From Acidobacteriaceae bacterium (GTDB taxonomy: Bacteria > Acidobacteriota > Terriglobia > Terriglobales > Acidobacteriaceae): a DNA stretch of 64,000 nucleotides. The notes beneath the pieces were generated by a model, which worked only from the letters and a program-made list of their open reading frames with translations, searched no databases and was not told the DNA's origin. Positions 8,414 through 14,824 of this stretch are shown piece after piece. The position numbers and the translations under genes were made by a program. Numbering within the stretch: the first letter of the stretch is position 1; every line of letters begins with the position of its first letter. The stretch spans positions 124,001 to 188,000 of the forward strand of contig JAOAPN010000005.1 in NCBI GenBank assembly GCA_025462885.1, in the 5' to 3' direction.

Positions 8414-9256
8414 CTAAATAAATGGCTTCAACTTTTCGCGCAAGGTCTGGTAGGCGCGAAACAACAAAGATTTGGTGGCAGACTCGCTGAGCTTGAGGAC
8501 GTCCCCGATCTGGCGGTAGTCCATCCCCTCGTACTTGTGCATGAGAACCGCCATGCGCTGTCGCTCGGGTAGAGCCAACACATGCTGGCGGATCGCGTTC
8601 AAACGTTCGCGCCGGAGAAGATTGGCTTCGGCACCGGGAGTGGTATCGGCAACGTCGGCGGTCGTTCCGGTCTCGGGGTCGGTTTCGTCGAGATACACGG
8701 TGGAGGCGGTGCGCTCGTGGCGATTATCGCGGGCATAATTGACGCCCAGATTCGTGGCGATGCGATACAGCCAAGTGCTGAAACGGGCTTCGGCGCGGTA
8801 GGTTTCGCGGGAACGGTAGATGCGGAGGAAGACCTCTTGTGCCAGTTCCTCGGCGATCGCCTGGTTGCGGACCATTCTGTACATGAAATGAATGATCGGC
8901 TTACGGTACTTCTGGATCAGAAAATCGAAGCCGGCCATGTTTCCTGCACTGAGTTGGAGCATGATCGCCGCGTCGTCCATATCGGCAAATTCGCCGTGGG
9001 GAGCGGCTTTTTCGACGGCCTCGAGATTCTGGAGGAGGGAAGCGTCATCCGACCGGGCTGGATGAACCGACGAAATCGGATTGAATGCCAGCGAAGCCAT
9101 ATCATCTACAACCCCGGTTTCATCCTCAGGTTGCGGATGCGGATCAAATTCCGCAGATTCGTCCTGGGAATTTGATTCTTCAGATACTTCCGGTTCGCTC
9201 TGCTGGCGTGGCTCAGGTACACCAGGGCGGCGGGGGCTGGAGTGAGGGAAGGGCAT
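8414..9256 (-). CDS. ECF-type RNA polymerase sigma factor
   Basis: Sigma-70 family protein of 280 residues. Region 2 spans about residues 95-185 (FDFLIQKYRKPIIHFMYRMV, AEELAQEVFLRIYR, ARFSTWLYRIATN). Region 4 spans about 220-275 (LPERQRMAVLMHKYEGMDYRQI with a helix-turn-helix and LLFRAYQTLREKL). About 90 acidic, low-complexity residues precede region 2; this is long for an ECF factor. The assigned ATG lacks a strong ribosome site, so Met53 or Met93 are alternative starts. It forms an operon with the anti-sigma and DUF3106 genes behind it and probably drives its own promoter (inference). Confidence 0.92.
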   Translation of the reverse strand: MPFPHSSPRRPGVPEPRQQSEPEVSEESNSQDESAEFDPHPQPEDETGVVDDMASLAFNPISSVHPARSDDASLLQNLEAVEKAAPHGEFADMDDAAIMLQLSAGNMAGFDFLIQKYRKPIIHFMYRMVRNQAIAEELAQEVFLRIYRSRETYRAEARFSTWLYRIATNLGVNYARDNRHERTASTVYLDETDPETGTTADVADTTPGAEANLLRRERLNAIRQHVLALPERQRMAVLMHKYEGMDYRQIGDVLKLSESATKSLLFRAYQTLREKLKPFI

Positions 9257-9448: not shown

Positions 9449-9523
9449 GGGCGCATAACTCAGCGGTAGAGTGCCACCTTCACACGGTGGAAGTCGTAGG
9501 TTCGAATCCTGCTGTGCCCACCA
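9449..9523 (+). tRNA. tRNA-Val (anticodon CAC)
   Basis: The acceptor arm GGGCGCA pairs with TGTGCCC (one G-U). The D loop has CAGCGGTAG, the anticodon arm is CCACC-TTCACAC-GGTGG with anticodon CAC, and the T arm is GTAGG-TTCGAAT-CCTGC. The discriminator A is followed by encoded CCA. The integrase gene on the opposite strand ends inside the anticodon loop, marking the tRNA 3' half as the element's attachment site. Confidence 0.95.
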
Positions 9524-10778
9524 ATCCTTTCAATAACTTAGGCGGTATGACGGTCGAAGCATTTGCGGCTTTTTGTGGCATTTCGCCAGAAGACTGATTC
9601 TCTCCTCCCTTCATTAGCATTGCGTACACCGATCCGACCATCGCCTGGACGCTTTCCGGCAACTCCTGCATGTACTCGTGAGCCGTCGTGTCCGGCCTAG
9701 AATGCCGCAGGTGAGCCTGGATGTCCTTCACCGATCCCATCTTCTGGGCCTGCGTCGCCATCGTCCGGCGCATCACTTGGAAGTTGAGCTTCGGAATGCC
9801 TAACGACTCGGCCAACGGCTTCAGTACCCGGAAGCGGTAGTTGTCCGCATCCATGAATCCACCGTCTGCATTCTGGAAGATGAATTCGTCGGGCGACGCC
9901 CTGCGATGTTCCGGCTTCGTGCAGAAACTGGTCTTGCAGGAAGCCTTCTTGCATTCCATCTTCCAGAGCAGCAGCTCATCCGCCAGACCATCCGGCAGGT
10001 GAACTTTGGTGAGGCTGCCTGGTGTCTTGCCGAACGGTCGGAGCGTTCTGGGATAGACGGTCTCGGTCAGGGTTAGCGTGTTCTGGTCATCGAAGGATCG
10101 CCACCTGAGCGCAAACAACTCACTCGGGCGAAGGGCCTCCGTCATATCGAGCATGAGGAGCAGACGATCTCGCCTGCCCGCATTGGCCAGGATCAGCCAA
10201 AGCTGTTCCCAGTTCAGCACCTGCTTGTCCTTGGGCCGGAGGTTCTTCGGAATCCGAAGCTTCCGGCTTGGATCTTTTGTCAGGTACTCCTGCTCGATGG
10301 CTTCATCGAAGATCGACTTCAGATACGACCTTGCTTGCTTCACACGATCCTGCGAGTACCGCTCCGCAAGACTGTTCAGGTGCGTCTGCAACATGAACTT
10401 GTCGAACGAATCGAGCGGATACGCTCCGAATCGATTTACGAGGTCGAGCTGAATCTGCGACATCTTCTCTTTCGCCGTTTCAGGTCGCCAATCTCCCTTG
10501 CGAAGCGGAAAGTAGCGATTGAGCACAAACCATGCGAAGGTGACGGAGCTGTCCTTGAGGACCCGGCCTCCGAGGTTCTGACCAGTACGTTTGGTGACTT
10601 CGGCTCGTAGTGCTTCTCGCGCCTGGAGCTTGGTCATTGTCGTTTTGAGAGCGAGCTTGACGCAAACTTTCTTGACTCGCTCCTCGCCTGTATCAGGATC
10701 AAGGACCGTCTGGCGGAAGTAACCAAACCACTGCTTTCCGCGCAGCGAGACCCAGCCTGTCTGGTGCGATTTACCCAT
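9480..10778 (-). CDS. Tyrosine site-specific integrase of a tRNA-Val island
   Basis: A 432-residue tyrosine recombinase. An N-terminal SAM-like/arm-binding part (to ~180) is followed by the catalytic domain. Catalytic residues read as Arg217 (ALRPSE), Arg337 (QVMRRTMAT), His359 (HLRHS) and Tyr369 (HEYMQ). The usual His of the HxxR box is Gln334, a tolerated but notable change. A small Cys cluster (Cys276, 281, 286 with His291) interrupts the catalytic domain. The last ~13 residues (GTAGFEPTTSTV) are encoded by the antisense strand of the tRNA-Val 3' half. It should cut and join at that tRNA site, helped by the upstream excisionase-like protein. Confidence 0.92.
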   Translation of the reverse strand: MGKSHQTGWVSLRGKQWFGYFRQTVLDPDTGEERVKKVCVKLALKTTMTKLQAREALRAEVTKRTGQNLGGRVLKDSSVTFAWFVLNRYFPLRKGDWRPETAKEKMSQIQLDLVNRFGAYPLDSFDKFMLQTHLNSLAERYSQDRVKQARSYLKSIFDEAIEQEYLTKDPSRKLRIPKNLRPKDKQVLNWEQLWLILANAGRRDRLLLMLDMTEALRPSELFALRWRSFDDQNTLTLTETVYPRTLRPFGKTPGSLTKVHLPDGLADELLLWKMECKKASCKTSFCTKPEHRRASPDEFIFQNADGGFMDADNYRFRVLKPLAESLGIPKLNFQVMRRTMATQAQKMGSVKDIQAHLRHSRPDTTAHEYMQELPESVQAMVGSVYAMLMKGGENQSSGEMPQKAANASTVIPPKLLKGLVGTAGFEPTTSTV

Positions 10779-10832: not shown

Positions 10833-11123
10833 TCAGCCCGTGCGCCTGTGCAGTTTGCTGATTTGCTCGTGTTCGGTGATGAAAAGCTCGATACCACTTG
10901 CGCGGTATCGTAGCGTTCCGTCGCCCATGCGAATGACTGGAAGAAGAGGCTTTTTGCGGGAGGAATGATCCCAGACCCAATCAGTGCTGACGTTTAAGCG
11001 ACGCGCCACGTCTTCTGCTGTGAGGAGTGGCTCGACCAAGGCTGATCGGGCTGGTGGCTTTCGCGGTATCTGTGAGTCTGAGGCAGAGTTAGCCAAATGA
11101 AGATCGCGGTTTTCCATGGACAC
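10833..11123 (-). CDS. Excisionase / AlpA-like helix-turn-helix protein
   Basis: A 96-residue protein with a winged HTH_17-type domain at about residues 33-90: LLTAEDVARRLNVSTDWVWDH, then RMGDGTLRYRASGIELFI. Such small proteins direct excision by, or regulate, a neighbouring integrase. The first ~30 residues are disordered-looking. It lies 55 bases upstream of the integrase gene on the same strand, a typical xis-int order. The role as excisionase is inferred from position. Confidence 0.82.
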   Translation of the reverse strand: MSMENRDLHLANSASDSQIPRKPPARSALVEPLLTAEDVARRLNVSTDWVWDHSSRKKPLLPVIRMGDGTLRYRASGIELFITEHEQISKLHRRTG

Positions 11124-11388: not shown

Positions 11389-12348
11389 ATGTCAGACATC
11401 GTTGAGTTTCGCCATCTGGAATATCTGGTTGCGATTGCCGAGCGCAAGAACTTCAGCAAAGCAGCCGAGCATGTACTGCGGTCACAACCTGCCGTCAGCC
11501 ACCAAATCAAAGCTCTTGAGGATGACATTGGATATCCGCTTCTCGTTCGTAAAGGACGCGATGGAGTCTATCCCACGCCTGCGGGAGAGTTCATACTTGT
11601 GTGGGCCAGAATCGTCCTTGCCGGAAAGAAAGAAACATTCCGCATGGCCAGGGCCATCCATGACGGAACGGTTCCACCGCTTCATCTGGGCTTCTCATCT
11701 TTTGTGAATGGATTCCTTCTCGACAACTTTCGTATCGCGTATCAGGGGATGTTCCCAGAGTGTGAGATCCATTTATTTAGCGGGGATACAAAGCATATTC
11801 TGGAGCGTCTTGAGAGAGGCGCGCTCGATTGTGCGCTCCTCCCAATGCCTATCGACAAAGATGTCTGGAGTGCTCGTCAAGTCGCACGCTCACCACTCGT
11901 CATCTGCATGCGCCCAGACGATCCCCTCAGCAATCAAGCCCTAGTAGATATTCGCGAAGCTGCGCCACGCCTCAAAGTGTTCCGTGATCCAGAATTGCAT
12001 CCCGCAGCGCATGCACGCCTTTCGGAGATGTTTTCTGAAGTGGGCGTGCCTCTCCATCTTGCCAGCTTTGCGGCGACACCGGCAGACATCCAACTGATGG
12101 TGAAGCAGGGATACGGACTCGCATTGATCGACCAGCTCTGGCTTCTCGATGCAGGTCTGATTACAAGGCCCTTATCGGGCTTGAACTGGACGGCTGACAC
12201 CGCGTTCGTTACGACGAAGAACCCGAGCCACATGGCCCTGATGTTCATCGAGAAATACCTAGATGAACACGATCTCGGGAGCACGCGTAAACAGCCGCAA
12301 CCGGCGGCGCTCCGCCAGCCTCATCAGCTGGAACTCATCAGTCGATGA
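11389..12348 (+). CDS. LysR family transcriptional regulator
   Basis: A 319-residue regulator. The N-terminal winged HTH occupies about residues 1-65 (FRHLEYLVAIAERKNFSKAAEHV, SQPAVSHQIKALEDDIGYPLLVR). The LysR substrate-binding domain follows at about 95-300, with PLHLGFSSFV, ERGALDCALLPMP and VKQGYGLALIDQ. The ATG start gives a complete HTH. It stands between the excisionase-like gene and a conjugative-pilin remnant; the effector and target are unknown. The 264-base upstream region contains the repeat set listed separately, which could include its operator. Confidence 0.92.
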   Translation: MSDIVEFRHLEYLVAIAERKNFSKAAEHVLRSQPAVSHQIKALEDDIGYPLLVRKGRDGVYPTPAGEFILVWARIVLAGKKETFRMARAIHDGTVPPLHLGFSSFVNGFLLDNFRIAYQGMFPECEIHLFSGDTKHILERLERGALDCALLPMPIDKDVWSARQVARSPLVICMRPDDPLSNQALVDIREAAPRLKVFRDPELHPAAHARLSEMFSEVGVPLHLASFAATPADIQLMVKQGYGLALIDQLWLLDAGLITRPLSGLNWTADTAFVTTKNPSHMALMFIEKYLDEHDLGSTRKQPQPAALRQPHQLELISR

Positions 12349-12463
12349 GCGATCTATAAATAGAACTTTGAGCACTATAGAAATTACGTCTTGGACTTCG
12401 CGAATCTCCTGACCTTACCTTTCGTGACATGGCGAAGCAGAACCCGCCATCAGGAGATTGCCT

Positions 12464-12931
12464 ATGTCACTGAACTCGTATCGTCGTAACCGGCTCACGC
12501 GGGGTTTCCTCCAAGTTGGGCGCACGCTTCTGCCTGCGCTCTTCACCCTCGCTTGTGCCGGAGTTGCCCATGCCCAGGGAACGATGGACTTCTCCGGCGC
12601 ACAAACGTTGATGTCAACTTTCAAAACTTTCGCCATGTACGCTGGGGCCGTTATCTGTCTCGGCGGGCTCATTTTTGCGGGCATCCGCATGATGAGTGGG
12701 CGATTTCAAGACGCCATACCAGGGCTCTTCGGTGCGCTGTTTGGCGCTGGAGTTCTCGGCTGGGGAGCCGGATGGATCGGACCTGCAACGCAAGGATGTT
12801 CACCCGCTGGAGGAGGCGCAGGGCTTCCGCGCCTTGCTGGACTTGGAAGAACCCAAGTACAGCATCGAGCAAATTGGAGCGCGTGTCGGGAAATCGCCCG
12901 TCTTCGTCACTTCGAGGTTGAAATTGACTGA
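12464..12931 (+). CDS. TrbC/VirB2-like conjugative pilin, 3' end replaced by foreign frame
   Basis: The first ~106 residues are a VirB2/TrbC-type pilin subunit: a long signal peptide ending at AHAQG, then two membrane segments (FAMYAGAVICLGGLIFAGIR and PGLFGALFGAGVLGWGAG). After IGPATQ, at about base 12782, the homology stops. The remaining ~50 residues are the wrong frame of a parB-like gene, without pilin features. The ATG at 12464 has the ribosome site CAGGAGA. The product is probably non-functional; it marks loss of a conjugation module by deletion. Confidence 0.75.
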   Translation: MSLNSYRRNRLTRGFLQVGRTLLPALFTLACAGVAHAQGTMDFSGAQTLMSTFKTFAMYAGAVICLGGLIFAGIRMMSGRFQDAIPGLFGALFGAGVLGWGAGWIGPATQGCSPAGGGAGLPRLAGLGRTQVQHRANWSACREIARLRHFEVEID

Positions 12932-14069
12932 CCTTGTGCCGTCAGCGGTCGATGCCTTCTATGCCGATGAAATAGGCGTCGGACACGCGCTACTGCTGGC
13001 GAAGTTGCCCGCAGACCAGCAGATAACCGCACTAACAGCGTGCTTCAAAGAGGTATACAGCAGCGGAGCATCGAAGCCAGCGCGTATTCTGCTGCCGGTT
13101 CGCAATCTGCAATTCTGGATCGACAGCAACATCCTGTTGGTTCTGAAAGATGCTCCGTTCAACAAGCGGGACGCACAGCTTGTTCCCGTTGCTGGCAGTT
13201 GCGCCGACTGCGCGAAGCGGACAGGCCATAACAAACTGCTGTTCGGCGATGACCTCGGAAAGCAGGGTGACCGCTGCACCGACCCCGGCTGCTACGCTGC
13301 CAAAGTATCGGCACACGTCGCCAAGTCCATCGCTGCGAAACCCGAGCTGGTGCAGATCAGCACGGCCTATGGCGCCCAGAAAGAAGGTAGCCCGGTATTG
13401 CCACGCAACAAGTACACTGCGATCCGGGATGATAAGCCGAAGTCCACGGACGAAGCGAAGCGTCCCGAGTTCAAAGTGTGCAAGTTCACCACGGAAGCCA
13501 TCATCTCTGAGGGCAGCGATATTGGCACAATCCACAAGGTGTGTGCCAATCCAGCTTGCCCGGTGCATCACCCGAAGAAGCAAACCAGCACGGACGATGC
13601 GACATGGAAAGCCGATCAGGAGAAGCAGCGTCGGGAACAGGCCATCGCCAACGCAACCGGCCTCCGCGTTCTCGCCGCAGTGGGTGCTGCCGTTCCAGTT
13701 CGCCTGCTCAAGCGTGACTTACTCTTCGTGATTGAGAAGCTGGTAAGCGTCATGGATGAGAACCGCGTCGAGACGTTGGCACGGCAGCATGGTATCCGGC
13801 AGAAGCGCGACGATGGAGGTATCAGCAAAACTCTGACAGTCTTCGTTCGTCGTGCGGATGAGGGTACACTCTCCCGGCTGTTGGTGGAGGCAAGCATTCT
13901 GCTTGCTGCCTCGCGTGGTAACCCGGCAACAGCCCTCAAGGATGCAGCTAGCGCCTACAAAGTGGACACCGATGCCATCGCTGCGAAGGTGAAGCAGGAG
14001 TTCGCCGCCAAGGAGAAGGCGAAGAAGACGGCACAACCCGCAGTCAAGGCAGCAAAGAAAGTAGCCTAA
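12696..14069 (+). CDS. ParB/Spo0J-like partition protein, N-terminally truncated
   Basis: Recognisable ParB homology begins at about base 12783 (QRKDVHPLEEAQGF), in the middle of the family's N-terminal nuclease-like region, and continues into the HTH (YSIEQIGARVGKSPVFVTSRL). The earlier codons from the nominal GTG lie over the pilin gene in another frame and have no homology. A Cys-rich block follows (GSCADCAKR and GDRCTDPGCY), probably zinc-binding and unlike chromosomal ParB. The Ala/Lys-rich C-terminus ends AKKVA. The missing start contains the CTPase core, so partition or priming functions are doubtful. Proteins of this type occur on plasmids and integrative elements. Confidence 0.8.
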   Translation: MGDFKTPYQGSSVRCLALEFSAGEPDGSDLQRKDVHPLEEAQGFRALLDLEEPKYSIEQIGARVGKSPVFVTSRLKLTDLVPSAVDAFYADEIGVGHALLLAKLPADQQITALTACFKEVYSSGASKPARILLPVRNLQFWIDSNILLVLKDAPFNKRDAQLVPVAGSCADCAKRTGHNKLLFGDDLGKQGDRCTDPGCYAAKVSAHVAKSIAAKPELVQISTAYGAQKEGSPVLPRNKYTAIRDDKPKSTDEAKRPEFKVCKFTTEAIISEGSDIGTIHKVCANPACPVHHPKKQTSTDDATWKADQEKQRREQAIANATGLRVLAAVGAAVPVRLLKRDLLFVIEKLVSVMDENRVETLARQHGIRQKRDDGGISKTLTVFVRRADEGTLSRLLVEASILLAASRGNPATALKDAASAYKVDTDAIAAKVKQEFAAKEKAKKTAQPAVKAAKKVA

Positions 14070-14795: not shown

Positions 14796-14824
14796 AGGTG
14801 AAAGCGGCTCGGCGGGATAGTGCA

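Follow-up and report, generated by a model that had tools for sequence, protein, structure and literature searches.

A tyrosine integrase gene that ends antisense to the tRNA-Val at its attachment site and should encode the same protein in the inserted and excised states

In two described systems, the attachment site of a mobile element falls inside a gene. In the archaeal 'suicidal' integrases of SSV1, pTN3 and pT26-2, integration splits the integrase gene into two inactive parts (PMC8371274). In mycobacteriophages with integration-dependent immunity, integration removes a C-terminal tag of the repressor (PMC8092301). These are the nearest real couplings to the one proposed in an earlier note on the locus described here, according to which an integrase changes its end on excision. 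A search of papers available without subscription yielded no paper on a bacterial integrase with a C-terminus altered by excision and no direct bacterial precedent for an integrase gene that overlaps its own tRNA site.

The present locus shares with the archaeal integrases an attP that overlaps the integrase coding sequence within a tRNA gene. However, the overlap concerns only the tail, the stop lies inside the repeat and nothing is split or altered; in two relatives with the same overlap and two att copies (G140 and G031), the integrase coding sequence is the same in both predicted states. As in the mycobacteriophages, the attachment site falls within the 3'-terminal region of a coding sequence, but the gene is there a repressor and here an integrase for which no change is predicted. 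The locus also resembles the anticodon-loop class of tyrosine integrases with which ICEs and genomic islands target tRNA genes: a Phage_integrase domain is present, the 3' part of the tRNA gene receives the insertion and, in relatives, direct repeats cover the tRNA from its anticodon loop to its 3' end, the element's copy restoring the tRNA. Such a direct repeat is present at both ends of the G140 and G031 elements and is missing from the decayed remnant described here. The difference from this class is that the integrase gene enters the att repeat, whereas most relatives stop shortly before it.

The window, the whole stretch of 64,000 nucleotides that was analysed, corresponds to G000:C13:124001-188000 in a 5.26 Mb draft genome of 16 contigs. 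It contains a tRNA-Val (CAC) gene at positions 9449-9523 of the plus strand (ARAGORN), with a normal predicted cloverleaf (-28.6 kcal/mol). On the minus strand, an ORF of 432 aa (9480-10778) matches both Phage_integrase (PF00589) and Phage_int_M (PF22022) above the gathering scores. Residues R217, R338, H359 and Y369 are invariant in the 32 sequences of the family alignment and would be those of the R-HxxR-H/W-Y type, with Tyr369 as the putative catalytic residue. The integrase ORF and the tRNA gene overlap by 44 nt including the stop (9480-9523), that is, 41 coding nt followed on the minus strand by a TGA, which reads TCA on the plus strand (9480-9482) and is complementary to tRNA positions U33-C34-A35. 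The 41 antisense bases encode the last 13 residues plus one shared codon, and the tail VGTAGFEPTTSTV is the antisense of tRNA-Val(CAC). The earlier note was therefore correct in placing the stop codon in the tRNA anticodon loop and the last ~13 residues opposite the tRNA 3' half. Since five other genomes (loci L024, L025, L026, L110 and L127) show this overlap and an identical tail, the overlap is not due to chance. In itself, the overlap is curious but ordinary.

A family-wide search gave integrase relatives in 32 of 150 genomes, and a GTDB scan contributed 77 further loci, the named ones being nearly all from Acidobacteriota (Granulicella, Edaphobacter, Terriglobus and others). The relatives adjoin Val(CAC), Val(GAC) or Ala(GGC) tRNA genes in the same orientation. 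G140, with an integrase 95% identical to that of the window, has two exact copies of CACCTTCACACGGTGGAAGTCGTAGGTTCGAATCCTGCTGTGCCCACCA located 89.0 kb apart (C3:753484 and C3:842523), and G031, with an integrase about 71-74% identical, has two exact copies 9.75 kb apart (C1:1594076 and C1:1603829). This direct repeat comprises 49 nt, or 50 with one further A, and begins 5 nt 5' of the integrase stop, which places the stop inside it. As the genome of the window yielded no second att copy, the repeat boundary was taken from these relatives, giving an expected identity block at 9475-9524 (plus strand). Orphan att copies in G130, G070 and G039 start at or 5' of TTCACAC and all contain this heptamer; the one in G098 is degenerate (TTCGCAC). 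In G130, the att sequence occurs three times (C4:30450, C4:118818 and C8:392419; L085-L087), which suggests tandem insertions or att remnants at tRNA-Val. Two further loci carry orphan tRNA 3' halves: at L021:4640-4760, one lies beside a degraded integrase relative with a flank resembling that of the window, and at L020:4605-4640, that of an apparent tRNA-Met is adjoined by a different integrase in the same genome.

The tRNA genes themselves probably also bear a mark of the element. Among integrase-adjacent Val(CAC) genes starting with GGGCGCA, 16, including the window's, end with TGTGCCC and 2 with TGCGCCC (L125 and L130), whereas the Val(CAC) genes without an integrase end with TGCGCCC in 3/3 cases seen. 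The TGTGCCC strand creates a G.U wobble pair in the acceptor stem. Given this difference between occupied and unoccupied genes, the element probably supplies the tRNA 3' half, which is the same DNA that encodes the integrase tail, and the gene at 9449-9523 would thus combine a host-derived 5' part with an element-borne 3' part. In agreement with the earlier note, which had assigned tRNA-Val(CAC) to the element, two features support it as the site into which this integrase lineage integrates: the 3' part of the tRNA is directly repeated over 49-50 bp in relatives, and most integrase-adjacent copies have the distinctive acceptor strand.

From the tRNA call and the repeat boundaries in relatives, the anticodon loop TTCACAC (9479-9485, plus strand), which holds the integrase stop, is presumed to be the 7-bp strand-exchange region. 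attP and attB must match in the strand-exchange region, and if the loop has this role, the stop would be fixed in every att site. The anticodon loop is an established overlap region for other integrases (PMC8371274). Beside the att site, sequence comparison and codon tables revealed a tandem GCCACAAAAAGCCGCAAA-type repeat (9560-9583, minus strand), a candidate for integrase arm sites. Tandem repeats of the form GCxxxxAAA are found in the stretch that separates the tRNA from the integrase Tyr codon; relatives retain the doublet with different inner bases (CACA, TACC, CGGCC and others), and these possible arm-type sites may be co-evolving with the integrase.

The earlier note had proposed a search for another copy of the 3' half of the tRNA. 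In the window's own genome, no second att copy turned up with an 18-mer (≤2 mismatches), a 25-mer (≤3 mismatches) or a 121-base blastn query; the sole other match to the 25-mer, at C8:168488, has 3 mismatches. Contig C13 continues 25.7 kb past the window end, and over the 80 kb that separate the tRNA from the end of the contig, compared through all exact words of ≥10 nt, the longest shared word was 13 nt. An attempt to locate the far host flank through the nuo genes of G034 failed, these genes being a diverged second copy that is not conserved at the site.

The gene content next to the integrase is that of a truncated element. On the host side of the tRNA, a sigma-70 family factor gene (8414-9256, minus strand) is conserved at this place in the same genus. 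Upstream of the integrase, a small ORF (10833-11123, minus strand; no Pfam match) possibly encodes, judging by eye, an excisionase-like protein, and is followed on the plus strand by a LysR-type regulator gene (11389-12348) that belongs to the element and is 79% identical to that of the G140 element. The G140 element has the order integrase, LysR, TrbC-like pilin, transfer genes and ParB. In the window, a TrbC/VirB2 pilin gene fragment with a weak Pfam TrbC match (12458-12780, plus strand) ends where the blastn alignment to G140 stops at ~12780. The alignment resumes at ~12801 with a ParB gene (12801-14069, plus strand) that lacks its N-terminal domain (HTH_ParB only versus ParB_N and HTH_ParB in G140). 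The deletion at this junction (12781-12800) joins the pilin fragment to the ParB fragment and takes away ~37.7 kb that the G140 element has, its conjugation genes among them. Between 12780 and 12801, the window thus lacks genes for a relaxase, a coupling protein and type IV secretion, the corresponding stretch of G140 encoding a TrwC relaxase, a TrwB coupling protein, a T2SSE/VirB11-like ATPase, TrbL, TrbI and CagX. Judged by these alignments, the element is a decayed conjugative element, an ICE remnant, and this state may explain the missing far att copy. A search of solved structures gave no match. To the right of the remnant, imperfect 63-nt direct repeats (60-81% identity) are located at 14805, 16741 and 22760.

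Taken as a whole, we hold with high confidence that the window contains attL in tRNA-Val(CAC), with an overlap that arose as a by-product, a stop inside the att repeat and an integrase independent of the integration state. The site would be the integrase end of an element inserted in this tRNA gene by recombination within or next to the anticodon loop, and the tRNA 3' copy of the element, read antisense, would supply the end of the integrase gene. The stop would lie inside the att repeat, probably inside the strand-exchange region, leaving the integrase identical in both forms. The lost att copy of the window presumably resembled those of its relatives, and we infer both the exact crossover point and the expression of the integrase.

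Comparison of stop positions points to the way in which the overlap may have arisen. In 77 non-redundant loci where a tRNA or half-tRNA is present, the integrase stops 0-20 nt before it in 36 and further upstream in 33, and overlaps it in 8. For those that end near the tRNA, the usual stop is the TGA of a TAAGTNNTTGA motif. In the window, codon tables place a TAAGTTATTGA motif at 9530-9540 (minus strand), at the TGA of which the relatives stop and which the window integrase reads in another frame: the window clade has the codons CCT AAG TTA TTG AAA versus GTA AGT NNT TGA in the relatives, and the shifted frame (AAG TTA/TTG TTG AAA) is common to the window clade and L026. The ancestral gene would have ended about 8 nt before the tRNA; a frame shift in the weakly constrained linker would have bypassed this stop in the window lineage, with translation continuing to the next in-frame stop, in the anticodon loop. 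In two other relatives, the TGA was lost by substitution (TGC in L166 and TGG in L146). In a tree from a quick search, from which L166 is absent, the overlap label required 3 changes, with L026 outside the window clade; a single ancestral gain with later losses remains compatible with this tree. Some overlapping integrases appear broken, with a split match in L025 (G070) and an in-frame TGA in L173; the latter, which has a different frame over the tRNA, was left out as evidence, given this TGA and its end at a contig edge. At L166:740-850, beside a tRNA-Val(GAC), the frame extends 55 nt into the tRNA and beyond the anticodon loop, in an integrase cut by the contig edge; its stop, 5' of the anticodon loop, is probably outside the att repeat. 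That read-through into the tRNA arose repeatedly, giving at least one relative (L166), and not the window, an integrase with a state-dependent C-terminus, is an unlikely but conceivable extension of this scheme.

We considered whether the tRNA-encoded tail is under selection, for example to signal degradation or stability or to contact DNA, whatever the integration state. Some constraint is possible: the overlap persists in five integrases ~90-97% identical and recurs in L026, the frame is kept in all six genomes, the 3-nt length difference of L026 preserves it, and among the closest relatives pN is lower than pS in the linker (pN/pS <1). However, the tRNA part of the tail is fixed by the tRNA and therefore says nothing on selection, and the linker varies freely when compared with L026, with a near-neutral pN/pS of about 0.8-1.0 versus 0.23-0.27 for the constrained integrase body. 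Moreover, residues 393-432 are predicted to be disordered (pLDDT near 30) and most relatives have no such tail. A selected tail is thus improbable, and the tail is best read as a variable, disordered and lineage-specific by-product, presumably without function.

Less probable still is the proposal of the earlier note that the C-terminus differs between the integrated and excised forms, so that protein length reports the integration state. The gene does end within its own attachment site, and the sequences diverge just past the stop; a stop slightly further 5' would make this reading true. However, when, in G140 and G031, the far end was joined in silico to the end that bears the integrase, the sequence just past the stop differed between the two states and the integrase did not, the stop lying 5 nt within the exact repeat, which contradicts the proposal in both genomes. 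The other orphan att copies likewise retain TTCACAC, except the degenerate one in G098. Because its stop lies inside the attachment-site repeat, the window integrase should be identical in the inserted and excised forms. Finally, that the integrase lies beside an unused tRNA by chance or through an annotation artefact is hardly credible: antisense tRNA reading frames do give GFEPT-like spurious ORF ends and the own genome has no second att copy, but the ORF is a full integrase, its relatives keep their orientation towards the three tRNA types and show direct repeats in complete elements, and there is no in-frame stop ahead of the tRNA, so the translated gene must include the tail.

Contrary to a plausible inference, ending in an attachment site does not by itself make a protein state-dependent. 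The deciding factor is the side of the repeat boundary on which the stop falls, and this provides a rule for which genomes can be scanned, with stops either inside or outside the identity block. L166 may answer differently from the window, and if its read-through is as proposed, it would be a real state-dependent integrase.
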